Shown here piece by piece: positions 38,903-59,495 of a stretch of 60,841 nucleotides of DNA (its first letter is position 1; each line of letters starts with the position of its first letter). The position numbers and the translations under genes were made by a program. This DNA comes from an uncultured Subdoligranulum sp. (GTDB lineage: Bacteria; Bacillota; Clostridia; Oscillospirales; Ruminococcaceae), in contig CAJFMB010000005.1 in assembly GCA_904390925.1 (NCBI GenBank), positions 1 through 60,841 of the forward strand, in the 5' to 3' direction. The notes under the pieces are model-generated. The model was not told the origin of the DNA, did no database searches, and was given only the letters and a program-made list of their open reading frames with translations.

Positions 38903-38931
38903 TTGAAATACAGGGCAAAATCGGTTATACT
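38903..38931 (+). promoter_or_regulatory. Promoter of the legB glycan operon
   Basis: TTGAAA (38903-38908), 17-bp spacer, TATACT (38926-38931). The leader is about 100 bases. No other promoter is evident until after 47225. Confidence 0.78.
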
Positions 38932-39040: not shown

Positions 39041-40024
39041 ATGGCACATACCGTAATGGTGACCGGCGCCGACGGCTTTATCGGCAGCCACCTGACCGAG
39101 GAACTGGTCAAAAAAGGGGAGAAGGTCCGCGCCTTCTGCCTGTACAACTCCTTCGGCTCCCTGGGCTGGATCGACACCCTGCCCCCCGAGATCAAAAACG
39201 AGATCGACGTTTTCATGGGCGACGTGCGCGACCCCAACGGCGTCCGCACCGCCATGCGCGGCCAGGAGCGGGTGTTCCATCTGGCGGCACTGATCGCCAT
39301 CCCCTTCTCCTACCACAGCCCCGACAGCTATGTGGACACCAACATCAAGGGCACGTTGAATGTGCTCAACGCCGCCCGGGAACTGGGCACCCAGCGGGTG
39401 CTGGTCACCTCCACCAGCGAGGTCTACGGCACTGCCCGCTATGTCCCCATTGACGAAAACCATCCCTTCCAGGGCCAGAGCCCCTACTCTGCCACCAAGA
39501 TCGGCGCCGACCGCCTGGCCGAGAGCTTCTACCGCAGCTTCGACCTGCCGGTGTCCATTGTGCGGCCCTTCAACACCTACGGTCCCCGCCAGTCTGGACG
39601 GGCCATCATCCCCACCATCATCACCCAGCTGCTGGCCGGCCAGACCGAACTGAAGCTGGGCAACCTGACCCCCACCCGGGACTTCAACTACGTCAAGGAC
39701 ACCGCCGCCGGCTTCATGGCCATTGCCGACTGCGACCAGGCCATCGGTCAGGAACTGAACATCGCCACCGGCGTCGAGCATTCCATCGGCGACCTGGCCA
39801 ACGAGCTGATCGCCCAGATCAACCCCGGCGCCCGCATTGTCTGCGAGGCCGAGCGCCTGCGCCCGGAAAAGAGCGAGGTCAACCGTCTGCTGGGCGACTC
39901 CACCAAGCTGCGCAAGATGACCGGCTGGGCGCCCAGGTACACCTTTGCCCAGGGTCTGGCCGAGACCATTGAATTCCTGCGCACCCACCTGGGCGACTAC
40001 AAGATCGGTCAGTATATTCTGTGA
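39041..40024 (+). CDS. legB: NAD-dependent 4,6-dehydratase, LegB type
   Basis: Extended-SDR enzyme that makes a 4-keto-6-deoxy nucleotide sugar, the first step to bacillosamine- or legionaminic-acid-type sugars. 327 residues: NAD-binding GADGFIG (9-15), GDVRDPNGVRTAM, HLAALIAIPFSYHSPDSYVD, catalytic Tyr149 and Lys153 (SPYSATKIGAD) with TSTSEVYG, VRPFNTYGPRQSGRAIIPTI and LGNLTPTRDFNYVKDTAAGF. The family match rests on memory of LegB proteins. None of the later pathway enzymes (LegC, NeuB) is in the window. Its stop overlaps the next start (TGATG), so it is coupled to the DUF2142 gene. Confidence 0.9.
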   Translation: MAHTVMVTGADGFIGSHLTEELVKKGEKVRAFCLYNSFGSLGWIDTLPPEIKNEIDVFMGDVRDPNGVRTAMRGQERVFHLAALIAIPFSYHSPDSYVDTNIKGTLNVLNAARELGTQRVLVTSTSEVYGTARYVPIDENHPFQGQSPYSATKIGADRLAESFYRSFDLPVSIVRPFNTYGPRQSGRAIIPTIITQLLAGQTELKLGNLTPTRDFNYVKDTAAGFMAIADCDQAIGQELNIATGVEHSIGDLANELIAQINPGARIVCEAERLRPEKSEVNRLLGDSTKLRKMTGWAPRYTFAQGLAETIEFLRTHLGDYKIGQYIL

Positions 40025-41676
40025 TGGCTATGCTTCAAAAACTGGCAAAAAAACCGGCAGCCCTGTGGGGGCTGGCGGGTCTGCTGGCCTGCCTGGCGGG
40101 GGTGGCCTGGGCCTACTACTGGCGGGTATTCTACTACCTGGACAGCCGGGTTTCGCCGGCCATTGTCACCGCCGGCTGCGTGCTGGCCTGCCTGGCTGCC
40201 GTGGCGGCGGCGGGTGTGCTGCATTACGGGCTGCGCAGCTTCACCGCCAAGGCCACGGCCTGCATTGCGGTCTGCGGTCTGTTGTTTGCCTTCGCCAATC
40301 CGCCGATGCAGACCCCCGACGAGTCGGAACATTTCCTGCGCACCTACGCCATCAGCATGGGCAGGTTTGACTTTGACGCCGAGCGGGGGTATCCCGACGA
40401 TGTGGCGGCTTTGTACAATGCTTTCCCCGGTGCCTGGGTCAATGCCCACACCTCCGCCGGTGCGGTGGAGGACGAGAAAACTGGCGAGACCAAGGTCTAC
40501 GACACCGCCGGCTATGCCCTGAAGCAGTACGGCGAGGACGGCCGCGTCGAGAGCGTGGCCGACAGCTTTGACGAATATCTGAATACCCCCGACATGACCC
40601 CGGTTAGCGAACCGGTCAGCTTTCTGGTGCTGCCCTTTCTGCCCGGGGCCATCGGCATGTTTGTGGCAAGACTTCTGGGCTTCGGAGCGCTGGGCTGTCT
40701 GTATGGCGGGCGCATCGCCAACCTGGCGGTCTACACGGTGCTGTGCTGGCTGGCGCTGCGCCGGGCGGAAAAATTCCGTCCCGCCTTTGTCTGTGTCATG
40801 CTGCTGCCGCTGTCGCTGTGGATGGGCGCCAGCCTGAGCTATGATGCGGCGCTGCTGGGCTGCTACTACCTGATGCTGGCCCAGCTGACCCGCCGCACCT
40901 GGACCACCCGGGACGCGGCTGTCTATGCCGCCGCCTGTGTCTGGGTCAATGTGGCCAAGCCCTACATCAATCTGCTGTGGGCATTTCTGCCGCTGATGCT
41001 GCTGCGGGAGGCGTTTTGTGCCCGCGGCCGCCGCTGGCACTGGACGGCCGGCATGCTGGCGGCCTCGCTGGCGGTGACCCGGCTGGTGGAATGGTACGGC
41101 GTTGCCTTCCGCGCCAATTACGGCGAGATCGGCCGCATGGGCGGCGGCGACGTGAACCAGCTGGAACAGCTGCTGTTCATTTTGAAAAATCCGCTGCGTT
41201 ACCTGGCGGTTTTGCTGGGTACACTGTACGAAAACGACTTTTTTGTGGGACAGCTGGGACTGTTCGGCTGGAAGGACCTGCCCATCACGCTGCTCAGCCT
41301 GACCGGGCCGGTGCTGCTGCTGACCGGCGCGGTGCTGTCCGCCGGCAAGGGCCAGTCCATCACCCGGCGCCGGACGGTGTCGCTGGCAGTGTTTGCCGCC
41401 GTCTATGCGGTGGGCATGATGACCGCCATGTATATCACCTACACGCCGGTGTCGATGGTGCGCATTGTGGGGCTTCAGACCCGGTATTTCCTGCCGGTTT
41501 TGCTGCTGGCTGCCATGCTGCTGGCCGTCCCGCTGCGCCGCACCCTGTCCGCCGGAATGACCCCGGCCAGGGCCGAGCGCTGGGCACTGCGGATCTTTGT
41601 GCCCTGCGCCGCCATCGGCGCCCTGCTGCTGTTCCAGCACTATTTCATCGGGCCCATTGCAACCATCCCGGCCTGA
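40024..41676 (+). CDS. DUF2142 polytopic membrane protein, GT-C-like
   Basis: 550 residues with about 11-12 membrane helices. The first outside loop has ANPPMQTPDESEHFLRTYA, the DUF2142 hallmark; an Asp-Glu in this loop is also where GT-C glycosyltransferases keep the catalytic acid. The C-terminal half has VGLQTRYFLPVLLLAAMLLA, another family feature (R-Y-x-x-P). It likely moves sugars from a lipid carrier onto a surface polymer; inference. It starts inside the legB stop codon. Confidence 0.82.
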   Translation: MAMLQKLAKKPAALWGLAGLLACLAGVAWAYYWRVFYYLDSRVSPAIVTAGCVLACLAAVAAAGVLHYGLRSFTAKATACIAVCGLLFAFANPPMQTPDESEHFLRTYAISMGRFDFDAERGYPDDVAALYNAFPGAWVNAHTSAGAVEDEKTGETKVYDTAGYALKQYGEDGRVESVADSFDEYLNTPDMTPVSEPVSFLVLPFLPGAIGMFVARLLGFGALGCLYGGRIANLAVYTVLCWLALRRAEKFRPAFVCVMLLPLSLWMGASLSYDAALLGCYYLMLAQLTRRTWTTRDAAVYAAACVWVNVAKPYINLLWAFLPLMLLREAFCARGRRWHWTAGMLAASLAVTRLVEWYGVAFRANYGEIGRMGGGDVNQLEQLLFILKNPLRYLAVLLGTLYENDFFVGQLGLFGWKDLPITLLSLTGPVLLLTGAVLSAGKGQSITRRRTVSLAVFAAVYAVGMMTAMYITYTPVSMVRIVGLQTRYFLPVLLLAAMLLAVPLRRTLSAGMTPARAERWALRIFVPCAAIGALLLFQHYFIGPIATIPA

Positions 41677-41727
41677 CGCGGCGGTGTTCCCGCCCGGCCG
41701 GATTTCGCCCCGAAAGGAGGCTTACCC

Positions 41728-43731
41728 ATGTCCCTGCTCACCGGTATTCTGGTGCTTGTACTGGTCAGCGCGGCGTCGGTCGCGCTGGCGGCGGTCACCG
41801 GACGGGATGCAGCGGTGTTTCCGCTGCCTGTCTTTTCCGGGGCAGTCTGCCTGATTCTGGCGGGCGGCTACCTGGGGGTCATGCAGGGGGCACTGTGGCT
41901 GGTGTACCTTGTGCTGCTGGCCGGGTCGGTCCTGCTGCTGCGCAAGGCCGGCGCCCGGCGCATCCGGGATGCACTGAACAGCCCCGGCCTGCGCTTTTTT
42001 GTGCTGGCCTCGCTGGTCATCTGGTTTCTGTTTGCTGTTTTGCAGCCGATGTTTGTGGAATGGGACGAGTTCACCTTCTGGGGCATGGCTGCCAAGCTGC
42101 TCAAGGAGAAAAACGCCCTCTATCCCGCTGATCCGGTCAACCTCAAGGCATACAGCGGCCTGCCCGGGCTGGGGCTGGTGTCTTACTTTGTGCAGGGCTT
42201 TTCCTCCGAGTTTGGCGAATGGCAGTGCCTGGCCGGCTATGACATGCTTTTGATGTCCTGCCTGTCGGCAGCCGCCGCTTTGCCCCGCCGCCGCTGGCCC
42301 CACAGCATTGCAGTGCTGGCCGGCGGCGTGCTGCTGCCCTTTTTCTTCAGTGTGGTCCCGGCGGGTACCGCCAGCACCGTCTACGCCAACGCCATGGCGG
42401 ATGTGCCGCTGGCGCTGCTTTTCGGCGGGGTGCTTTGCCTGTGGTTTGCCGTGGGGCCCGGCTGGCAGGGAGTGTTGCTCACCGCCCTGCCGCTGGCGCT
42501 GCTGACGCTGGCCAAGGACATGGGCTTTGCCTATGCGCTGATCGCGGTGTTTGTGATCTTTCTGGACCTTGTGTTCGGCCGGGCCTGGAAACAGCAGGGC
42601 AGGGGCCGCTTTTTCGGCGGTGCTCTGGGACGTGCCGCGGTGCTGGCGGTGCCGGTGCTGGCGGCTTTCCTCAGCTGGAACCGGTACACCGCCGCCCACC
42701 TGACCACCACCGGCGCTTCGGTGGGCAGCAGTGGGTTGAGCTACGGTCAGGTGGTGTTCGGGGGACTGGCACAGCTGTTCGGCGTCGGCCGCACCCAGAA
42801 ATTCTCCGACCTGATGGGCCTGATGGCGGACGCCTTCTTCACCCGGGATGTCTGCCTGCTGGGGGCGCCGGTTCTGGCCGTCGCCGCCAGCACGCTGATC
42901 GGCGCGGCAGCCTTCCTGTTTGCCGGAAAAGGCGCGCCCCGCCGCCGGGTGGTTGCAACCTGGGCCGGGCTGGCGTTCTGCTTTGCCGCTTTTTATCTGT
43001 TCCACCTGATTCTCTACTGCTACAACTTCTCTGACGTGGAGGCCTACGCGCTGCAGGATTTTGACCGCTACATCGGCCCCTATCTGCAGGGGTGGATGCT
43101 GGTGATGCTCTGTCTGCTGGGGTATTCCGCCGCCCGGCGGGAAGCGGACGCCGCCCGGTTTGCCCGGCTGGGCAATCTGGCGCTGCTGGCGGCTGCGGCC
43201 TGCATTGCCCTGGTCTTTGCCTGGCGGGGCGTGCCTGCCTCCGGCTTCTGGACCGACAGCGACAGCCGCTATCTGCTGCGGCAGGACGTGAAAAACCGCG
43301 CCGCCGCCGCCAATCAGGTGCTGGACTGGGACGACAATGTGCTGGTGCTCAGCCAGGGTGACGACGCCACCCGCTGGTACTATTACAACTACGAGCTGAC
43401 CGCCCATGTGGCCCGGGGTTACGGCGGATTTTTCAACGGCGAGGATGCCTCCAGCCGGTGGGATTCCGACTTCATGAACCTGGTGGAGAGCGAAAACTGG
43501 ACGCTGTATGACTACAAGGCGGTCTGTACTCCCCAGGCGCTGGTGGCCTATCTGGAGGAAAAAGACTGCGATTATCTGCTCATCGACCGGGCGGACGACT
43601 ACCTGGAAAAGTCCTTCAGCCCGCTGTTTGAGGGCGGCCTGACCGCCGACATGCCGATGACGCTCTACCGGTTTGACGCCGACGCCCAGGTGCCCTTCAC
43701 GCCGGTGGCCACGGCAGAAAGCGAGGGCTGA
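41728..43731 (+). CDS. Large GT-C-like membrane protein, module copy A
   Basis: 667 residues, about 12 membrane helices and a C-terminal soluble domain from roughly residue 510. After two or three helices the first outside loop carries MFVEWDEFTFWGMAAKLLKE, with an Asp-Glu pair in the place of the GT-C catalytic acid. The end domain includes DDNVLVLSQGDDATRWYYYN and YLEEKDCDYLLIDRADDYLE. It is a clear paralogue of the protein at 44452-46545: same loop, same layout, similar end domain. The next gene follows after 3 bases. I know no named family for it. Confidence 0.8.
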   Translation: MSLLTGILVLVLVSAASVALAAVTGRDAAVFPLPVFSGAVCLILAGGYLGVMQGALWLVYLVLLAGSVLLLRKAGARRIRDALNSPGLRFFVLASLVIWFLFAVLQPMFVEWDEFTFWGMAAKLLKEKNALYPADPVNLKAYSGLPGLGLVSYFVQGFSSEFGEWQCLAGYDMLLMSCLSAAAALPRRRWPHSIAVLAGGVLLPFFFSVVPAGTASTVYANAMADVPLALLFGGVLCLWFAVGPGWQGVLLTALPLALLTLAKDMGFAYALIAVFVIFLDLVFGRAWKQQGRGRFFGGALGRAAVLAVPVLAAFLSWNRYTAAHLTTTGASVGSSGLSYGQVVFGGLAQLFGVGRTQKFSDLMGLMADAFFTRDVCLLGAPVLAVAASTLIGAAAFLFAGKGAPRRRVVATWAGLAFCFAAFYLFHLILYCYNFSDVEAYALQDFDRYIGPYLQGWMLVMLCLLGYSAARREADAARFARLGNLALLAAAACIALVFAWRGVPASGFWTDSDSRYLLRQDVKNRAAAANQVLDWDDNVLVLSQGDDATRWYYYNYELTAHVARGYGGFFNGEDASSRWDSDFMNLVESENWTLYDYKAVCTPQALVAYLEEKDCDYLLIDRADDYLEKSFSPLFEGGLTADMPMTLYRFDADAQVPFTPVATAESEG

Positions 43732-43734
43732 CCC

Positions 43735-44373
43735 ATGCGCAAGACAACTTCCACCCGGCGCCTGTTCGGTTTGTGCTATGCGCTGGCGGTGATTCTGTGG
43801 GTGGTGTTCTGCCTGGGCCGGTGTGCCGTCATGCTGGTCAACAAGGCAAACGGCACCATGCCCCAGACCACCCTGACCGCCGCGGACCTGCGCTTCGAGA
43901 GCTTTGAAAACTATCAGGATCTGGAGTGGGACACCCCGCCGGACGACGACCCGGACTGGTTCCTCTCCACCGACAACGACCCCCATATTCTGTATGACGG
44001 CGGCGGCTACATCGAGACCGTCCGCCTGTATGCAAAGCACCGCCTGCCGCCGGGCAGCGTGACGCTCTATTACCTGCTGCCCGGCCAGACCGATTACAGC
44101 GAGGCGCAGAAGGTCTTTGCCCGTGTGGCGGAGCCCGGCGTCTACGAGTTCGACCTGGGCGGCATCACGGTGGCGGGACTGCGCATCGACCCGGACAGCG
44201 TGGGCGGTGTGGCCACCCTGTTCACCGGCGTCCAACTCAACCCGCCCCGGTTCTGGCTGCTGCGGTTTGTGCCCTCCGCCGGACAGCTGCTGCTGCTTCT
44301 GGCGCTGCCGTCCTGTGCCGCCGCGGCGTTTGCACTGGTGCGGGGCAGACGCCAGCCGGAGGCCGAGAGGTAA
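43735..44373 (+). CDS. Small two-helix accessory protein, module copy A
   Basis: 212 residues: one membrane helix near the start (about 10-32), an outside domain of about 140 residues rich in beta-strand pattern, and a second helix near 178-200. Markers shared with its paralogue at 46545-47225 are W-(F/Y)-x-x-(T/S)-x-x-D-P near residue 80, VTLYYLLPGQTDYSEAQKVF, and LRIDPDSVGGVATL. I do not recognise the family. The constant pairing with a GT-C-like neighbour suggests a partner subunit. Confidence 0.75.
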   Translation: MRKTTSTRRLFGLCYALAVILWVVFCLGRCAVMLVNKANGTMPQTTLTAADLRFESFENYQDLEWDTPPDDDPDWFLSTDNDPHILYDGGGYIETVRLYAKHRLPPGSVTLYYLLPGQTDYSEAQKVFARVAEPGVYEFDLGGITVAGLRIDPDSVGGVATLFTGVQLNPPRFWLLRFVPSAGQLLLLLALPSCAAAAFALVRGRRQPEAER

Positions 44374-44451
44374 AGGGCCGGGCCGGCTTTCCCGACCCGG
44401 TGCCGCGGATGATCCGCTGTCGTTGAAATCTATTTCCGAAAGGAGCTGCCC

Positions 44452-46545
44452 ATGGAGCTGCTCTGTGTCTTTGCCGCCATGGCGGTACTGTTTCTGTTCG
44501 GCGCCTTCCTGACGCTGAAATGCGGCCTGCACAGTGCGCTGGCCCCGCTGGTTTCGCTGGCGGTGGCGGTGTTCTGGCTGACACTGTGGGGCATGGCCGG
44601 CCCCCTGCTGGCGGGGGCCTGGCTGCTCTACCTGCTGTTTGCGGGGCTGGGCATCTGGGCGCTGTGGCCCCGCCGGAACCCTGCCCGCCGCCCCGACTAC
44701 AGGCGGCTGGTCAGCCCCGGTGCGCTGCTCTTCTGGGGGCTGACCGCGGCCTTTGCCGTCTACTTTTTCCTGCGCCAGCCCATGGCCACCGGCTTTGATG
44801 AGCTCAACCTCTGGGCCACCGCCGTCAAGGTCACCAAGGTCAGCAACAGTCTGTACTCCAATGTTCAGCTGGGCACCCCCTGGGCGGTCACTCAGAACCC
44901 CGGCCTGCCGATGCTCAGCTACTTTTTCAGCTTTCTCGGCGCCTATGCCGACTGGAAAATCTACCTGGCCTACAATGCCCTGGCCTTTGCGGTGTTCGGG
45001 GCGGTGCTGGGCACCCTGACCTTCTCTCGTTTTCGTGTGGCGGTGCCGCTGGCGGCGGCGCTGTGGTGCGTGCCCTACTTTTTCACCACCTACAACCACA
45101 CCATCTACCTGAACACCGTCTACATGACCAGCTACGGTGATATCCCCGCCGGCCTGGTGATGGGCGGCGCTGTGGCACTGTGGCTGGCGCTGCGCCACTC
45201 GGAGGGCCCCAAGTGGGCGGTGTTGCCGGTGCTGGCACTGGCCGCCAACCTGAAAGCCAACACCTTTGTGCTGGCCCTGGTGGCCGCAGGACTGGTGGCG
45301 GTGGATGCCTGGCTTTTGCCCCAGGACCGGTTCCGTGTGAAAGCGCTGCGCCGTACCGGCTTTGCGGTGGCCTGTTTTGCGGCGCCGCTGGTCGTCTACT
45401 ATCTGTGGAATGTGCGGTATGTGGGCTATCTGGTGGCACAGAAGAGTGCCGACACCGGTGTGGGCGAGACCACCGCGGCCCTGTCGGATGTGGTGGTCAA
45501 CGGCATCCGGATTTTGCTGGGCCAGCCGGTGGAAGGCTTTTTCGCCGAGCGTCGGGACCAGTTTTTGCAGGCTATCTCCGACATGGGCACCCAGTTCTGG
45601 ACGAGCGCCGGGTCGCTGAGCATGATCGGCCAGGGCCGCAACGTGGTGATTCTGATTCTGGCCGTCTTTCTGCTGGCGGTGCTGCTGGCAGGCGGGACCC
45701 GTCTCCGGCTGCGGATCGGCTGTGCCGCCGTCTGCAGCAGCCTGTGCTTTCTGGGTTACAACCTGATGCTGGCATTAAGCTACGGCTTTATCTTCAAGCC
45801 CTTCCAGGCGGAAAGCCTGACCGACTACAACCGTTACATTTACAGCTATTACATCGGCTGGTTCCTCATCGCACTGGCCTGCCTGGCGCTGGCCTTGCAG
45901 CCGGACACCCGCAGCTGGACGGTGGTAATTCGCGAGAAGGACGGTCCCACCATGGAATTTCACCGCCAGACCTGCCGGCCCCGCTTTGCACTGGCAGGGC
46001 AGGGGGCGGTGCTGCTGCTGGCGGCTGCGATGCTTTTCCGGCTGAATCAGCTGGTACTGCCCCAGCTGTCGGTGCTGGGCTTTTCCGACAGCGAGTTCGC
46101 CGACCGCAAGGCCGAGCGGGCCGAGGCCCAACTGGTTTGCAGCTATCTGCAGCCGGACGACCGGGTGTTCTATGTCAGCCAGGGGGACAACGGCGAAGGC
46201 TGGTTTTCGGCGGTGTTTGACTTTTACCCGATTTTGGTGGATTACTCCGGCGTCGAGTCCACCATGGAGGGCGGCGGCGGCACCTTCGGTCTGGAGGAGC
46301 TGAAGCCCACCGAAGAAGGCCCCAAGCAATATTACTATCATCCCTACACCGCCGAGCGGCTGGCCCAGACCATCCGGGACAACGGCTGTACCGTGATTTA
46401 TCTGCAGCAGATCGACGATATTTTTGTGCAAAGCTATGCCGAACTCTTCACCGACGGACTGGCTGCCGCCCAGAATGGCGAGACGCTGCTCTACCGTGTG
46501 ACCGACGCGGGCTTTGCCCCGGTGGAAATGGAGGTGACCCGCTGA
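44452..46545 (+). CDS. Large GT-C-like membrane protein, module copy B
   Basis: 697 residues, about 12 membrane helices plus a C-terminal soluble domain. The first outside loop is MATGFDELNLWATAVKVTKV, aligned with EWDEFTFW of copy A. The tail reads DDRVFYVSQGDNGEGWFSAV and NGCTVIYLQQIDDIFVQSYA, again matching copy A. The ATG at 44452 follows GAAAGGAG. It overlaps its small partner gene by one base (TGATG, 46543-46547). Likely a glycosyltransferase using a lipid-linked sugar; this is inference from the fold pattern. Confidence 0.8.
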   Translation: MELLCVFAAMAVLFLFGAFLTLKCGLHSALAPLVSLAVAVFWLTLWGMAGPLLAGAWLLYLLFAGLGIWALWPRRNPARRPDYRRLVSPGALLFWGLTAAFAVYFFLRQPMATGFDELNLWATAVKVTKVSNSLYSNVQLGTPWAVTQNPGLPMLSYFFSFLGAYADWKIYLAYNALAFAVFGAVLGTLTFSRFRVAVPLAAALWCVPYFFTTYNHTIYLNTVYMTSYGDIPAGLVMGGAVALWLALRHSEGPKWAVLPVLALAANLKANTFVLALVAAGLVAVDAWLLPQDRFRVKALRRTGFAVACFAAPLVVYYLWNVRYVGYLVAQKSADTGVGETTAALSDVVVNGIRILLGQPVEGFFAERRDQFLQAISDMGTQFWTSAGSLSMIGQGRNVVILILAVFLLAVLLAGGTRLRLRIGCAAVCSSLCFLGYNLMLALSYGFIFKPFQAESLTDYNRYIYSYYIGWFLIALACLALALQPDTRSWTVVIREKDGPTMEFHRQTCRPRFALAGQGAVLLLAAAMLFRLNQLVLPQLSVLGFSDSEFADRKAERAEAQLVCSYLQPDDRVFYVSQGDNGEGWFSAVFDFYPILVDYSGVESTMEGGGGTFGLEELKPTEEGPKQYYYHPYTAERLAQTIRDNGCTVIYLQQIDDIFVQSYAELFTDGLAAAQNGETLLYRVTDAGFAPVEMEVTR

Positions 46546-47225
46546 TGAGTGCCAGAGCATTTCCGGGTCCCGTTTCCGCAGCCGGGCGGCTGCTGTCCCG
46601 CCGCGGCGGGCTGGCGATTGCCTGTTACCTGCTGGCGGTACTTGTCTGGCTGGTGCTGGGCTGTGTCAACTTTGCGGCGGATGCCGCCGCCCGGGCAAAC
46701 GGCTCGCTGGCGGAGGAAAGCCTGCCGCTGTCCGGGCTGCAACTGGTGGACCTGGCACCCGGGGAGGACGGCTGGTATACCACCACCAGCGGCGACCCCC
46801 AGATCATTCTGGAAAACGTGGACGGCCGGGTGGTGCGGACGCTGAGCTACACCGCCCGGTTTGAGGGCGAAGCCCGGGAGGTCTGCCTGTATTACACCAC
46901 CGCCCCCGGCCAGCCCTACAGCCAGGACAACCGGGTATTCCCCAGCCGCACCGCCGACGGCAGCTATGTCTTTACGCTGCCCCGCACCACACTGGTGTCG
47001 CTTCGGCTGGACCCCTGCAGCCCGGACGAGAACGCCACCGTCCGGCTGAAACTGGACGGCGACGCCATCACCCTCAATGCCGCCGATGCCCTGCCGGGCG
47101 GGGCAAGCTACTGGCTGCCCAGCTGGTACCAGACCTTCTGCCTGATTTTGTACCCGGCGCTGGCCGCGGCTGCGCTCAGTTGGCTGCGGGCGGTATGGCG
47201 GACCTGCCGCCGCAAAACCGAATAA
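46545..47225 (+). CDS. Small two-helix accessory protein, module copy B
   Basis: 226 residues with helices at about 24-46 and 190-212 and an outside beta-rich domain between. DGWYTTTSGDPQIILENVDG, VCLYYTTAPGQPYSQDNRVF and LVSLRLDPCSPDENATVRL align with the copy A protein at 43735-44373. Its start overlaps the stop of the large copy B gene, so the two are made together. Function unknown. Confidence 0.75.
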   Translation: MSARAFPGPVSAAGRLLSRRGGLAIACYLLAVLVWLVLGCVNFAADAAARANGSLAEESLPLSGLQLVDLAPGEDGWYTTTSGDPQIILENVDGRVVRTLSYTARFEGEAREVCLYYTTAPGQPYSQDNRVFPSRTADGSYVFTLPRTTLVSLRLDPCSPDENATVRLKLDGDAITLNAADALPGGASYWLPSWYQTFCLILYPALAAAALSWLRAVWRTCRRKTE

Positions 47226-47232
47226 TTCCGCC

Positions 47233-47280
47233 AATACCGTCTGCTGCCGGTGGTGTCCGCCGGTGGCGGGCGGTATTTTC
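47233..47280 (+). terminator. Terminator of the legB glycan operon
   Basis: AATACCG (47233-47239) pairs with CGGTATT (47271-47277), with an inner CCGCC/GGCGG hairpin, then TTTC. Confidence 0.62.
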
Positions 47281-47384: not shown

Positions 47385-47456
47385 GATTCAGAAAATTGAA
47401 GAATCTCCGGCGCCCGCCGCGCCGGTTTGTCACGGCAAATTGCCGGGAGGTATATT

Positions 47457-48770
47457 ATGAATCCGCTGCGCAAAGTTTACTGCCGCACCTATCAGCTGGC
47501 GTTTCGCATGGCACTGCCCTTTCTGCCCTACCGGGAGCCCAAGCTCCTGGACGGGGTACAGGGACTGGCCGACCTGCTGGTCAGCCGGCACATCCATCAG
47601 GTGCTTCTGGTCACCGACCGGGGCATCCTCAGCCATGACCTGACCCGGCCGCTGCAGGATGCCCTGGCCGAAGCCTATATCGGGGTGTCGCTTTTTGCCG
47701 ACACCGTCGCCAACCCCACCGTCGCCAATGTGGAGGCCGCCCGCGAACGCTACCTGGCGGACGGTTGCCAGGCGATCATTGCCTTCGGCGGCGGTTCGTC
47801 GATGGACTGCGCCAAGGCCTGCGGCGCCCGCATTGCCCGGCCGGGCAGGCAGCTGGACCAGATGGAGGGCCTGCTGCATGTGATGCGCCGGCTGCCGCTG
47901 CTCATCGCGGTGCCCACCACCGCCGGCACCGGCAGCGAGACCACCCTGGCCGCCGTCATCACCGACGGCGAGACCCGCCACAAGTATCCCATCAATGACT
48001 TCTCCCTGATTCCGGACTACGCGCTGCTGGACCCGGATGTGACCCTGGGTCTGCCGCCGCAGCTCACCGCCACCACCGGCATGGATGCCATGACCCACGC
48101 GGTGGAGGCCTACATCGGCGGCTCCACCACCAAAGGGACCCGGCAGGCCGCGGTGGAGGCAGTGCGCCTGATCCTGGAAAGCCTGCCGGTGGCCTACGAG
48201 CACGGCGGCGACCGCACCGCCCGGGCCCACATGCTGCGGGCGGCCTATCTGGCCGGCACCGCCTTCACCAAGAGCTACGTGGGCTACATCCACGCGGTGG
48301 CCCACTCGCTGGGCGGACAGTACGGCATTGCCCACGGCCTGGCCAATGCGGTGCTGCTGCCGGAAGTGCTGGAAGCCTACGGCACCGCCGCCCACAAGCG
48401 GCTGGGCCGGCTGGCGATGGAGGTTGGCGTGGCGTCGGTTCACGACACCCCCGCTGAGGCTTCCCGCAAATTTATCGCAAAACTGCGCAAAATGAATGAA
48501 GAGATGGGCATTCCCCGCACGCTGGCCGGCATCCGGGAGGAGGACCTGCCCCGGCTGGCCCGCAACGCCGACCACGAGGGCAACCCCCTCTACCCGGTGC
48601 CGGTGCTGATGGATGCCCACGAACTCCAGGCGCTTTACCGCCTGGTCATGCCCAAAACGGAGGATCAATCCCATGACACAGCAGGAAATTGCACAGGTGG
48701 TGCAAAAGCAGAGACGGTTCTTCTCGACCGGCAAAACACTGCCCCGGGCGTTTCGCACCAAAGCGCTTGA
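47457..48770 (+). CDS. Iron-containing alcohol dehydrogenase
   Basis: Group III NAD(P)-dependent alcohol dehydrogenase. 437 residues: AFGGGSSMDCAKACGARI (nucleotide-binding GGGSxxD), AVPTTAGTGSETTLAAVITD, and the metal-ligand region TGMDAMTHAVEAY, HAVAHSLGGQYGIAHGLANA, with Asp and three His positions. The ATG at 47457 is seven bases after GGGAGG. The last ~40 residues (HDTAGNCTGGAKAETVLLDR...) run in a second frame over the start of the aldehyde dehydrogenase gene, a 98-base overlap, and do not look conserved. Confidence 0.92.
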   Translation: MNPLRKVYCRTYQLAFRMALPFLPYREPKLLDGVQGLADLLVSRHIHQVLLVTDRGILSHDLTRPLQDALAEAYIGVSLFADTVANPTVANVEAARERYLADGCQAIIAFGGGSSMDCAKACGARIARPGRQLDQMEGLLHVMRRLPLLIAVPTTAGTGSETTLAAVITDGETRHKYPINDFSLIPDYALLDPDVTLGLPPQLTATTGMDAMTHAVEAYIGGSTTKGTRQAAVEAVRLILESLPVAYEHGGDRTARAHMLRAAYLAGTAFTKSYVGYIHAVAHSLGGQYGIAHGLANAVLLPEVLEAYGTAAHKRLGRLAMEVGVASVHDTPAEASRKFIAKLRKMNEEMGIPRTLAGIREEDLPRLARNADHEGNPLYPVPVLMDAHELQALYRLVMPKTEDQSHDTAGNCTGGAKAETVLLDRQNTAPGVSHQSA

Positions 48771-50052
48771 CGATCTGAAGGCGGCACTGCTCCGCCATGA
48801 ATCCGACATCGAGGCGGCACTCAAATCCGACCTGGGCAAAAGCCGGGTGGAAGGCTATATGTGCGAGACCGGCATGACGCTGGCCGAGCTTTCCTGGATG
48901 CGGCGCCATCTGGCGGGGCTGATGCGGGACCGGACGGTCTACACCCCGCTGTCCCAGTTTGCCGCCCGCAGCTTCCGCAGCCCGTCGCCCTACGGCGTCA
49001 CCCTGATCATGAGCCCTTGGAACTATCCGCTGCTGCTGACGCTGGAACCGCTGATCGACGCGCTGGCCGCCGGCAACACCGCGGTGGTCAAGCCCAGTGC
49101 CTATTCCCCGGCCACCAGCGAGGTCATCCGCACCATCCTGGCGGAATGCTTCCCGCCGGAATATGTCTTTGTGGTCACCGGCGGCCGGGCGGAAAACCAG
49201 GCGCTGCTGGAACAGCGGTTTGACAAGATCTTTTTCACCGGCGGCAAGACGGTCGGCCGGGAAGTGCTGCGCCATGCCGCCGAGTACCTGACCCCCGTCA
49301 CACTGGAGCTGGGCGGCAAAAGCCCCTGCATTGTGGATGCCACCGCCGACCTGAAGCTGGCTGCCCGGCGGATCGTGTTCGGCAAGTACCTCAACTGCGG
49401 CCAGACCTGTGTGGCGCCGGATTACCTGTACTGCGAGGCCTCCATCCGGGACGAGCTGGTGCTGGCTATCCAGAAGGAGATCACCGCCCAGTTCGGCGCC
49501 GAGCCGCTGGAAAACCCCAACTACGGCAAGATCGTCAACCGCAAGCACTTTGACCGTATCCGGGGGTTGATCGACCCGGCCAAGGTAGTTACCGGCGGCA
49601 CCGCCGACGAGCAGACGCTGCGCATTGCCCCCACCGTCATGACCGACGTGACCTTTGACGACGCGGTGATGGGGGAGGAAATCTTCGGACCTGTGCTGCC
49701 GGTGCTGACCTGGAACACGCTGGACGAGGCCATCGCCGCCACCGAGAGCCGGCCCCATCCGCTGGCGCTCTACTGCTTCACCAGCAGCCGCGCCACCCGC
49801 AGACAGGTGCTGGCCCGCTGCCATTTCGGCGGCGGCTGCATCAACGATACCATCATCCACCTGGCCAGCAGCAACCTGCCCTTCGGCGGCGTGGGGGAGA
49901 GTGGTATGGGCAGCTACCACGGCAAGGCAGGCTTTGCCGAGTTCAGCCATACCCGCAGCATTGTGGACAAAAAGACCTGGCTGGACCTGCCCATGCGCTA
50001 CCAGCCCTACACCGGGCAGAAGGACAAGATGGTCCGCATGTTCCTGAAATAA
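48673..50052 (+). CDS. Aldehyde dehydrogenase family protein
   Basis: 459 residues, the short class-3-like form without an N-terminal extension. Motifs: IMSPWNYPLLLTLEPLIDAL, AGNTAVVKPSAYSP, FFTGGKTVGREV, VTLELGGKSPCIVD (catalytic Glu), YLNCGQTCVAPDY (catalytic Cys) and GEEIFGPVLPVLTW. The C-terminal SRATRRQVL, FGGVGESGMGSYHGKAGF is also typical. The ATG at 48673 is eight bases after GGAGG. With the alcohol dehydrogenase upstream it would interconvert a long-chain or aromatic alcohol, aldehyde and acid. Confidence 0.95.
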   Translation: MTQQEIAQVVQKQRRFFSTGKTLPRAFRTKALDDLKAALLRHESDIEAALKSDLGKSRVEGYMCETGMTLAELSWMRRHLAGLMRDRTVYTPLSQFAARSFRSPSPYGVTLIMSPWNYPLLLTLEPLIDALAAGNTAVVKPSAYSPATSEVIRTILAECFPPEYVFVVTGGRAENQALLEQRFDKIFFTGGKTVGREVLRHAAEYLTPVTLELGGKSPCIVDATADLKLAARRIVFGKYLNCGQTCVAPDYLYCEASIRDELVLAIQKEITAQFGAEPLENPNYGKIVNRKHFDRIRGLIDPAKVVTGGTADEQTLRIAPTVMTDVTFDDAVMGEEIFGPVLPVLTWNTLDEAIAATESRPHPLALYCFTSSRATRRQVLARCHFGGGCINDTIIHLASSNLPFGGVGESGMGSYHGKAGFAEFSHTRSIVDKKTWLDLPMRYQPYTGQKDKMVRMFLK

Positions 50053-56572: not shown

Positions 56573-57457
56573 ATGCAGTATACCATTGAAAACGACTCCA
56601 TTCGCCTGACAGTAGACAGCAAGGGTGCCGAGGCGGTCAGCGTTGTCAACAAGCATTCCGGTGCGGAGATGCTCTGGTGCGGTGACCCGGCGGTCTGGGG
56701 CCGGCATGCGCCGATTCTGTTCCCCTACACCGGCAAGCTGACCGGCGGCAAGATGATTGCCAAAGGGCTGGAATACACCGGCGGCCAGCACGGCTTTGCC
56801 CGGGATGTGCAGCACACCCTGACCCGCCAGACTGCCGACACGCTGGAATTTGAGCTGCACGCCGACAACCAGACGCTGCCGCTGTGGCCTTATGCCTTTG
56901 TGCTGCGCTCCACCTTTGTGATCGACGGTGTCACGGTGCATCACACCCTGACGGTGGAAAACCCGGTGGAACCCCAGCTGCGGTTTGGCATCGGCTACCA
57001 TCCGGCCTTTGCCATTCCCTTTGACGACAAGCACACCGCCGATGATTATGAGTTCCGCTTTGAGGAGCTGGAAAGCCCGCTGTGTGTCAGCGCCCGGCCC
57101 AACGGCCTGCTCAACGGCACCGACTATTATTATCTGGCCCGCAATACCCGCCGCATTCCGCTGACCAGCGAGCTGTTTGCCAACGACAGTCACTGCATGG
57201 TCAATCTGCGGTCCAAGTCGCTGGCCATTGTGGAAAAGGACACCGGTCGCCGGGTCAGCTGCGACATTGAGGGCTATCCCTATGTGCTGATCTGGTCCAA
57301 GACCGACTGGCCGGCCCGGTTTGTCTGCATCGAGCCGTGGCACAGCCTGCCCGGTGAGGAGAACGGCCCGCTGGAATGGGAGCAGCGCCCCTGCGCCGCC
57401 AGCCTGCGTCAGGGCGAGAGCTGGTCCACCACCCTGTCCACCACCTTTGACCGCTGA
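56573..57457 (+). CDS. Aldose 1-epimerase-like protein (LacX type)
   Basis: 294 residues. Features of the LacX/YeaD branch of mutarotase-like proteins: KGAEAVSVVNKHSGAEMLWC, GDPAVWGRHAPILFPYTGKL, GGQHGFARDVQHTLTR, RFGIGYHPAFAIPF and FVCIEPWHSLPGEENG, with the active-site His and Glu in the GYHPAF and IEPW segments. It probably converts anomers of a sugar or sugar phosphate. The ATG at 56573 follows GGAGGA. The next gene starts four bases after its stop. Confidence 0.92.
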   Translation: MQYTIENDSIRLTVDSKGAEAVSVVNKHSGAEMLWCGDPAVWGRHAPILFPYTGKLTGGKMIAKGLEYTGGQHGFARDVQHTLTRQTADTLEFELHADNQTLPLWPYAFVLRSTFVIDGVTVHHTLTVENPVEPQLRFGIGYHPAFAIPFDDKHTADDYEFRFEELESPLCVSARPNGLLNGTDYYYLARNTRRIPLTSELFANDSHCMVNLRSKSLAIVEKDTGRRVSCDIEGYPYVLIWSKTDWPARFVCIEPWHSLPGEENGPLEWEQRPCAASLRQGESWSTTLSTTFDR

Positions 57458-57461
57458 AACT

Positions 57462-59495
57462 ATGAGTATAAAAAGTAAGTCACCAGACGGTGCGGCAGCT
57501 TTCTGGTATCGGCAGCGGTATGCCCTTGCGGCGGCGCTACTGGGTGCAGTCTTCTTTCTTCTGCTGTACGGCGTGCGGGTGATCGTTCCCACCAGCACTG
57601 ACTGGATTTTGAACCTGGGTTCGGACCCGTCCCAGCATTACCTGGGATGGGAGTTTTACCGCCAGAGTGAAGTGCGCCTGCCATTTCTTGGCATGTCCTA
57701 TGCCACAGTGTACCCGTTCCGCACCAGTATCATTTACACCGATTCCATTCCTCTTCTAGCCTTGTTTTTCAAAGGTTTCAGCAGCTTGCTGCCCGAACGC
57801 TTCCAGTACCTGGGCATGTGGGGCCTGTTCTGCTTTATGGCCCAGGGATTTTTCGGCCAGAAGATCGTTTGGTGTATCAGCGGAGCAGAGTCGCGGGGCA
57901 CTGCTGTCCGATGGGGTACCGTAGGAAGTTCCCTGCTGTTTCTGCTGTATCCGGTATTGACGGTACGCATGTTCGGCCACACGGCACTGGCAGGAAACTG
58001 GCTCATTCTCATGGGGATCTGGCTGTGGCTCTGCTGCAAGGATTCCCTGCCCAAGGCCTGTTTCTGGTGGGGGTTGATGGGAATTCTCTGCGCAGGCATC
58101 CATCAGTATTATTTGCCCATGCTGGGCATTCTGGTGGTGGGGTATGCCGTTTCCCGCCTCATGCAGGGCAAAAGTCCCGCTTTGGCCTTGCTGCCTATCC
58201 TGTCCTACTGCTGTTTTGCCCTTGCAGAACTGTTTGTTCTGGGAGCTTTCTCGGGGAATTTTGCCGATACGGCCCCCGCGGGATGGTTTCGAGGGGCAGA
58301 CCCGTTGAGTCTGTTCATTCCTGGCCTTTACTCCAGCTGGGAAGTGGATCTTTACATGGGGACGGGTGCTATTCTGGCCTGTGTTCTGGCTGCGGTTATC
58401 TGGATTGTGCACAAAGTACGCCGGGGCTCTGACCAGGATATTCAAAAGCCTCTGCCCTGGTTGATTTCGGCGGTGCTTATCGCCGTTCTCAGCCTATTTG
58501 CCGCGGCAAGCAACTCTATCACCATCGGCGGCGTCCATCTGGGTGAACTGCCCATGCCGGATTTCCTGCTGAATCTGTGGCAGATGTTTTCCGTATGTGG
58601 GCGGCTCGGCTGGGTAGCTGGATATCTGCTGCTGTCCGTTGCCTGCGGTCTGCTGCTCCGGTACGGCCATCGTATCGGAGTTGCCGCTCTGGCTGTCTGC
58701 ATTGTGGTGCAGGCAGGATGGATCAGCGGAAGTCTGATGGAAAAGGCCGAGGAATTTCACCAGGACCCCCTGTATCAGAATACCGCGATTCTGAAAGATA
58801 ATGCCTGGCAGACCATTGCCCAGGACCAACACTTCCAGCACCTGGCCTTTGCTTCTTATGATATCGAAACACCGGCATACTGGCCTCTGGTATCCTACGC
58901 AGCGGACAATGGCTGGACAGTCAACTGCTTCTATCTGGCTCACATCCAGTATGACCTGATGTTGCGGACGGTGCAGGGAGAACTGAACAATCTCTCGGCA
59001 GATACCCTGTATGTTTTTCTGGAGGGAGATGCGCTCAATCAGGCACGTCTGTCCGACCAGCTGCATTTCTATCGTATTGACGGGATTTTGGTTGGCAGTG
59101 TGGATCCTCTGCCCCTGCCCGAGGCGGAACAGCGTGTGGCAGAAGTGAATCTGGCCCGCAGTACTGCAACCGAGGGTGGCACAACGGAAATCACTGCCGA
59201 CAGAATCACCATTCAGCCGGGTGAGATGATCTCCACCAATTCTTGGCAGCTGAATCCCGGCGTTTATACCGTTACCATCCAAGGCTCCGGGTTGGACCAC
59301 AGCTATATCCACAGCGGATATCAATGGGAGAGCCAGTGGGTCGACCAGGATATCGTATTTCTCACCGGGAAACCGGACGAGATGGTATTCCAGTTTACCC
59401 TGTCCCAACCTGTCATTGGATGGAGCATTCAAATCCATACCTTGGACGATACTCCGGTGGTCGTAACCGACATTGAAGTCTCAGCAGCCATGTAA
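57462..59495 (+). CDS. Polytopic membrane protein, DUF6311/GT-C-like, lower GC
   Basis: 677 residues with about 11 membrane helices and an outside C-terminal domain of ~230 residues. The first loop has LNLGSDPSQHYLGWEFYRQS, as in DUF6311-type proteins; an Asp in this loop is where GT-C enzymes keep the catalytic acid. The C-terminal part has TTEITADRITIQPGEMISTN and a beta-rich end. Its base composition is visibly lower in GC, with more A/T-ending codons than its neighbours, suggesting recent transfer. It lacks a clear ribosome site and starts four bases after the epimerase. Confidence 0.78.
   Translation: MSIKSKSPDGAAAFWYRQRYALAAALLGAVFFLLLYGVRVIVPTSTDWILNLGSDPSQHYLGWEFYRQSEVRLPFLGMSYATVYPFRTSIIYTDSIPLLALFFKGFSSLLPERFQYLGMWGLFCFMAQGFFGQKIVWCISGAESRGTAVRWGTVGSSLLFLLYPVLTVRMFGHTALAGNWLILMGIWLWLCCKDSLPKACFWWGLMGILCAGIHQYYLPMLGILVVGYAVSRLMQGKSPALALLPILSYCCFALAELFVLGAFSGNFADTAPAGWFRGADPLSLFIPGLYSSWEVDLYMGTGAILACVLAAVIWIVHKVRRGSDQDIQKPLPWLISAVLIAVLSLFAAASNSITIGGVHLGELPMPDFLLNLWQMFSVCGRLGWVAGYLLLSVACGLLLRYGHRIGVAALAVCIVVQAGWISGSLMEKAEEFHQDPLYQNTAILKDNAWQTIAQDQHFQHLAFASYDIETPAYWPLVSYAADNGWTVNCFYLAHIQYDLMLRTVQGELNNLSADTLYVFLEGDALNQARLSDQLHFYRIDGILVGSVDPLPLPEAEQRVAEVNLARSTATEGGTTEITADRITIQPGEMISTNSWQLNPGVYTVTIQGSGLDHSYIHSGYQWESQWVDQDIVFLTGKPDEMVFQFTLSQPVIGWSIQIHTLDDTPVVVTDIEVSAAM

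Follow-up and report, generated by a model that had tools for sequence, protein, structure and literature searches.

A 60,841-nucleotide stretch from an uncultured Subdoligranulum sp. (assembly GCA_904390925.1, contig CAJFMB010000005.1, positions 1 to 60,841 of the forward strand), hereafter called the window, carries six genes arranged head to tail on the + strand at 39041-47225. They are legB, a gene for a DUF2142 membrane protein (D), and two successive pairs, each coding for a large polytopic membrane protein (L1, L2) and a small one (S1, S2). An earlier note on this DNA had described legB, DUF2142 and two large/small pairs, and all six genes lie where it placed them. GT-C below stands for the glycosyltransferase C fold, and aa for amino acids. 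The features, with the evidence for each, are as follows.

38903..38931, + strand: promoter-like site TTGAAA-17-TATACT upstream of legB (consensus scan)
39041..40024, + strand: legB, NAD-dependent 4,6-dehydratase (TIGR04180, 498.5 bits, cut-off 475)
40021..41676, + strand: D, DUF2142 polytopic membrane protein, likely a GT-C-type transferase (PF09913, E 3.4e-39)
41728..43731, + strand: L1, large polytopic GT-C-like protein, 667 aa (homology to L2; family profile and tree)
43735..44373, + strand: S1, small partner, 212 aa, two helices and an outside beta-sandwich (homology to S2; S profile, 228 bits; hydropathy)
44452..46545, + strand: L2, large polytopic GT-C-like protein, 697 aa, with a C-terminal globular domain (AlphaFold2 model; Foldseek matches to AftA, ArnT and ALG12)
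46545..47225, + strand: S2, small partner, 226 aa (AlphaFold2 model, mean predicted local distance difference test score (pLDDT) 95.1; Foldseek match to CBM86)
47254..47272, + strand: terminator-like hairpin with a T-rich tail behind S2 (consensus scan; sequence read)

legB starts at ATG 39041, preceded by an aaaggag Shine-Dalgarno-like stretch, and reading the sequence confirmed that its stop overlaps the start of D in a TGATG, the coupling reported in the earlier note; the same overlap recurs at L2/S2. D starts at GTG 40021 or ATG 40024, scores well over the Pfam PF09913 cut-off (135.2 bits versus 30.1), and has a Q-x-P-D-E box that is invariant in 18 D proteins. The promoter-like and terminator-like sites that bound the gene set, as consensus matches only, are in line with a single transcript: the scan gave three promoter-like sites in the region versus 1.3 expected, the one at 38903-38931 being weak by itself, and 27 terminator-like hairpins versus 8.3 expected. 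Script-computed ratios of nonsynonymous to synonymous substitution rates (dN/dS) against two congeners were 0.04-0.37 across the six genes, all of which look to be under purifying selection.

The two pairs are related to each other. In BLASTP, L1 and L2 align over nearly their whole length, C-terminal domain included (119 bits, E 2e-32; 674 columns with 27% identity), and S1 and S2 with E 2e-10 (34% identity over 100 columns, covering the outside domain), so that both pairs are homologous well above chance, as had been proposed. L1 gave no Pfam or NCBIfam match at E up to 1, and L2 three matches to other families, all under cut-off. The EWDEFTFW/GFDELNLW box, pointed out in the earlier note as shared by the large proteins, holds a conserved acidic pair across 79 L proteins (D116 invariant, E117 in at least 90%). 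In L2 the D-E pair lies behind predicted helix 4, in a loop that should face outwards according to the positive-inside rule; as a very short turn joining helices 2 and 3 precedes it, this is the first large outside loop, but not strictly the first one.

Structure models were built from 79 L and 86 S sequences. The L2 model (pLDDT 93.4, predicted template modelling (TM) score 0.94) returned AftA (E 6e-4), ArnT twice and ALG12 as its top four PDB matches in Foldseek, with probability 1.00, followed by weaker matches to WaaL (rank 5, probability 0.60), Stt3, AftB and Pmt4, all of them GT-C or GT-C-like, with unrelated channels and transporters interspersed from rank 6 on at probabilities of at most 0.15. 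L is hence predicted to have a GT-C fold, in agreement with the nature ascribed to the large proteins earlier. It shares with AftA, ArnT and ALG12 this predicted fold and the acidic residues in a large outside loop, but differs from them in having no sequence match and in the four predicted helices that precede the acidic loop.

For S1 and S2, searches of Pfam and NCBIfam at E up to 1 returned nothing. Across 86 S proteins D84, R154 and D156 are invariant, and of the three markers originally listed for the small proteins LYY..PGQ and LR-x-DP stand, whereas W-x-x-x-D-P has to be corrected to W-x6-D-P (WFLSTDNDP, WYTTTSGDP). When the 86 members were compared with Pfam at E up to 0.05, six single-member matches appeared that look like chance, and the only match to PDB sequences, a nanobody at E 0.41, was also taken as chance. 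The S2 model consists of a helix, a beta-sandwich and a second helix, with the positive ends inside. Four chains of the carbohydrate-binding module CBM86 (nearest 6sgf) were its only Foldseek matches under E 0.001 (1.6e-5 to 3.1e-5); for the match at E 1.6e-5 the TM-score is 0.37 relative to the complete S and 0.56 relative to the module. BcsB, CBM6, CBM4 and CBM29 came next (E 1e-3 and weaker), interspersed with non-sugar sandwiches. S is therefore predicted to be a membrane-anchored sandwich like a carbohydrate-binding module; unlike CBM86, with which it has about 14% identity in the structural alignment, the sandwich of S sits between two membrane helices, next to a transferase.

We analysed the pairing of L and S in 75 loci obtained by scanning named genomes with one peptide pattern and keeping the best 80 of 96 relatives. 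They come from records titled Gemmiger, Fournierella, Anaerofilum, Ruthenibacterium, Faecalibacterium, Subdoligranulum, Pygmaiobacter, Oscillospiraceae, Ruminococcaceae and Clostridia, and many are cut by contig ends. In these loci, themselves chosen by L, every one of the 120 S genes immediately follows an L. Searching by S in 297 genomes gave 97 matches, 92 of which come immediately after an L of the same strand (median gap 16 nucleotides); the other five are the two halves of a fusion (G045), one match near a contig end (G024), a fragment (G146:C19) and a weak match (G131). Conversely, 28 of the 120 L rows compared with these S matches lack an S of their own among them, several being fragments or at contig ends. 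Trees built from 62 L and 48 S proteins place the 15 L1-type proteins in a single clade (support 100/99) and all of their S partners inside one 19-row S clade (98/98), whose remaining four members belong to a separate four-row L group. We infer that the L-S pair was duplicated as a unit before these genera parted. L and S distances correlate with r 0.905 (117 pairs, 63 loci), and on swapping partners within a locus r drops to 0.32 +/- 0.04 (maximum 0.50), with none of 1000 trials reaching 0.905. Conserved order alone would give the same correlation, which thus shows absence of partner exchange, not contact.

These data support S as the dedicated partner of L. It could be an assembly or stability factor for L only, whose sandwich binds no sugar. 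PIG-X is such a factor for PIG-M, eukaryotic GT-C accessory subunits of that sort exist, strict pairing and co-divergence fit a protein-protein role, and the S fold resembles non-sugar sandwiches as well. Against this, CBM86 is the clear top fold match of S, and S domains also occur outside the pair with L.

Eleven of the 75 loci have an L but no S gene, and in five of them (L133, L138, L147, L148, L149) an S unit is fused to the N-terminus of D, which is 650-720 aa long there, compared to 521-628 aa in 48 loci with S. The N-termini of these D proteins match the S profile collinearly (E 1e-5 to 3e-4 on 10144 open reading frames (ORFs) for four loci; L148 more weakly) and, taken together, match S in a profile-profile comparison (probability 97.4, E 1.5e-11, 125 columns), with PF09913 kept behind the fused unit in the three full D proteins scanned. 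Contig ends truncate five of the remaining six S-less loci, which end in or just behind L (L110, L120, L136), start inside D (L128) or start just before L (L142). Two S domains stand at the front of an ABC-2 permease (L160:6801-8501, - strand), with an ABC ATPase and an RmlD-type gene adjoining; another belongs to a protein of 653 aa whose PMT_2 match falls just short of the cut-off (L178), adjoined by a YfhO gene; and an S-like domain is on a DUF6056 polytopic protein (L195:6473-10020, - strand, genome G817), beside GT2 and GtrA genes. Judged by these matches, the S domain is not exclusive to L, as it is also present on DUF2142, a PMT_2-like protein and an ABC-2 permease. The earlier idea of a dedicated accessory subunit for each large protein accordingly holds for the pairing (92 of 97 S matches, co-divergence) but not for exclusivity. 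As the other hosts of the S domain, such as the ABC-2 permease, DUF2142 and, for the S-like one, DUF6056, sit among glycan genes, glycan gripping is favoured over a pure stability role, which we regard as distinctly unlikely.

The arrangement in G817 resembles three-component glycosylation (GtrA flippase, GT2 and GT-C), from which the window differs in that no GtrA or GT2 family was found among its 36 ORFs scanned with Pfam, some of them possibly in wrong frames. Two further DUF2142 proteins are encoded in the window's own genome, on contigs 3 and 8 (L002 and L003, ORFs of 936 and 763 aa), and read by eye they have a different-looking helix-beta-helix unit before the membrane domain.

With L1 as query, relatives were found in 36 of 197 genomes of the family, and in 297 genomes the L profile matched in 54 and the S profile in 48. 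An S search at E up to 0.01 across the phylum gave, besides the own genome, four of 398 genomes, with the matches in G759 and G971 too weak to use. Across the order, an S search gave five of 295 genomes, the match in G526 being weak. Among 40 stretches from the family, legB-D-L-S was present in 16 genera, in one of them as D-L-L-S; the number of pairs ranges from one to three. The orders in the 75 loci are legB-D-L-S-L-S (27), legB-D-L-S (11), L-S-L-S (9), legB-D-L-S-L-S-L-S (7) and others (21). Single in-frame stops were seen within three L or S matches (G269:C1:103113-105137, G123:C61:12003-13904, G293:C50:5166-5720), possibly reflecting decay, assembly error or an ORF edge. A YfhO-cluster gene follows the L-S-L-S block in four Gemmiger-titled records (L104, L106, L107, L112); of the 22 members of this neighbour cluster, seven are full length and 15 are short, at least partly alternate frames.

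Genes of the legionaminic acid pathway recur next to the module. Neighbours in the 75 loci include LegC in at least 38, a nucleotidyltransferase in 35, NeuB-type LegI in 34 and NeuC-type LegG in 32, together with an MBOAT protein (30), a TIGR04396 'surface carbohydrate biosynthesis' protein (28), an SGNH-like protein (27, named by eye), two oxidoreductase-like genes (27 and 12), a CMP-transferase-like gene (12) and WbuX (9). The LegC member scanned scored 453 bits (cut-off 420), LegI and LegG were over cut-off in relatives, and many loci are a single run legB-D-(L-S)n-legC-nucleotidyltransferase-legI-legG. A further neighbour cluster, 'c289', matched no family and has the look of an artefact from an alternate frame. 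The glycan locus tied to LegB that the earlier note envisaged is supported by the neighbours in many relatives. The known pathway (LegB, LegC, LegG, LegI, LegF) is represented by LegB over cut-off here and by LegC, LegI and LegG in relatives, but there the L-S pairs stand between legB and legC, a layout that we know of in no description of legionaminic acid synthesis.

Closer to the window, legC was nearby in none of the eight nearest loci (L075-L082), and in the congeners G054, G151 and G220 (L191-L193) legC to legF are clustered away from legB-D-L-S, the operon of other genera being split here. The genus search covered 35 genomes, the window's own included; LegC passed the cut-off in 31, and the window's genome is one of the four in which it did not. 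At 47427-50052 (+ strand) in the window, the position after the operon where many relatives have legC, there are iron-type alcohol dehydrogenase-like and aldehyde dehydrogenase-like genes. Further on, at 57321-59495 (+ strand), lies a gene for a DUF6311 polytopic protein whose C-terminal domain reads as beta-rich, possibly a membrane transferase with a sandwich.

This scatter would fit a purely incidental clustering, in which unrelated membrane genes happen to follow legB: other leg genes are elsewhere in the window's genus, and seven L-S-L-S loci have no legB in view. Such a reading is largely contradicted by the order kept in 16 genera, the coupled stops and starts, the duplication of the pair and its co-divergence, and is exceedingly improbable. 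It is also very unlikely, if less so, that the module acts in the manner of an oligosaccharyltransferase, attaching a legionaminic-acid glycan to a surface protein. Elsewhere flagellins carry nonulosonic acids, and the weak GT-C matches of L2 include Stt3 and Pmt4, but no target protein gene recurs in the neighbour clusters scanned, and the neighbours of MBOAT, SGNH-like and TIGR04396 type seem suited to decorating a polysaccharide.

We favour, with a probability of roughly 0.57, the interpretation that legB-D-L1-S1-L2-S2 is one operon and the membrane half of a legionaminic-acid surface-glycan system in Gemmiger and relatives, with L and D as GT-C enzymes and S as a glycan-holding subunit. 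LegB would make a 4-keto-6-deoxy-N-acetylhexosamine nucleotide, the start of the legionaminic-acid (nonulosonic-acid) pathway, whose other genes would be those found directly after the module in many relatives and elsewhere in the window's genus. D, L1 and L2 would be GT-C-fold transferases using polyprenyl-linked donors at the outer face of the membrane, each probably forming a different linkage, or acting in en-bloc transfer or polymerisation. S, anchored by its two helices, would place its sandwich over the mouth of its L partner and grip the acceptor or the growing glycan for L, or for D when fused to it.

Several findings weigh against this interpretation. The L profile had no match at E up to 1 to PDB sequences, solved GT-C enzymes and polymerases included; only one Foldseek match of L2 is under E 0.001, and its TM-scores are low (0.35-0.47 for the first four, 0.17 (WaaL) to 0.47 overall); and L aligns only weakly with DUF2142 in hhalign (probability 63, E 6.8e-5), non-collinearly and with the D-E boxes outside the aligned part. 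The S2 model also matches non-sugar sandwiches, such as ephrin-receptor domains (E 2e-3 and weaker) and gingipain adhesin domains. One L has no S in view (L125), and distant L relatives (L069, L070, L072, L074) are without S. For seven of the nine L-S-L-S loci (L102, L104, L106, L107, L112, L137, L141), the upstream 6 kb or more contain neither legB nor D, and in the Gemmiger genome G274 an L-S-L-S block (L162) is on another contig than its legB-D-L-S. Finally, the window's own assembly, 85% complete, has no LegC and no NeuB/LegI match over cut-off. One missing stretch of an assembly of that completeness would explain the absence of both, gene loss being the alternative. Given this and the seven L-S-L-S loci without legB or D in view, the statement that the system is fed by a LegB-made sugar nucleotide is tentative for this genome.

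The nearest described analogue, going by layout, is the lactococcal WpsI/WpsH, found with WpsJ and, according to PMC12599335 and PMC8327497, a polymerase/co-polymerase pair. The former describes WpsH as having a signal peptide at the N-terminus, a membrane helix at the C-terminus and a large outer loop between them. In PMC10821137 one sentence calls WpsH the GT-C enzyme and a figure legend calls WpsI the polymerase; DUF2142 proteins are also reported in streptococcal rgp loci (PMC9746298). The likeness, by layout and description, is that of a DUF2142 or GT-C-type polytopic protein with a large-outside-loop protein in cell-wall polysaccharide assembly. Here, unlike there, the small protein pairs not with DUF2142 but with L, a family that has no Pfam or NCBIfam match over cut-off, and there are up to three pairs per locus and leg-gene neighbours. 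The earlier view that no described system has this layout is hence slightly too strong, WpsI/WpsH being a described pair of similar layout. The literature search found no paper on the locus and none with both 'Gemmiger' and 'legionaminic', with most subscription papers outside its reach.

The comparison leads to a further reading, in which L would polymerise flipped lipid-linked repeat units in the manner of Wzy, with S regulating its chain length or serving it as co-polymerase; two or three pairs would then make different kinds of chain. The layout of S resembles that of WpsH with its large outer loop (PMC12599335), to which a co-polymerase role is ascribed (PMC8327497); the S-DUF2142 fusion recalls the DUF2142-type WpsI with WpsH; and the WaaL ligase, at rank 5, is among the weaker fold matches of L. 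The L profile, however, matches no solved polymerase, and we consider this reading unlikely, though to be taken seriously.

Going beyond the glycan-assembly operon favoured above, we tentatively propose, at somewhat less than even odds, that L and S together form a GT-C enzyme of a new, two-subunit class, in which the subunit that holds the glycan is detachable. S would have been mixed among proteins by gene fission and fusion, and the duplication of whole pairs would have given every linkage in a legionaminic-acid polymer of common gut Oscillospirales an enzyme and a clamp of its own. The locus probably helps to build an undescribed surface polysaccharide; for comparison, the capsule of Faecalibacterium prausnitzii HTF-F is of unknown composition according to a review (PMC12413058). 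If our reading is true, the locus would assign named genes to a sialic-acid-like glycan on the surface of gut commensals, offer a two-subunit enzyme that can be tested, and supply a domain connecting GT-C transferases to the export of polysaccharides by ABC systems.

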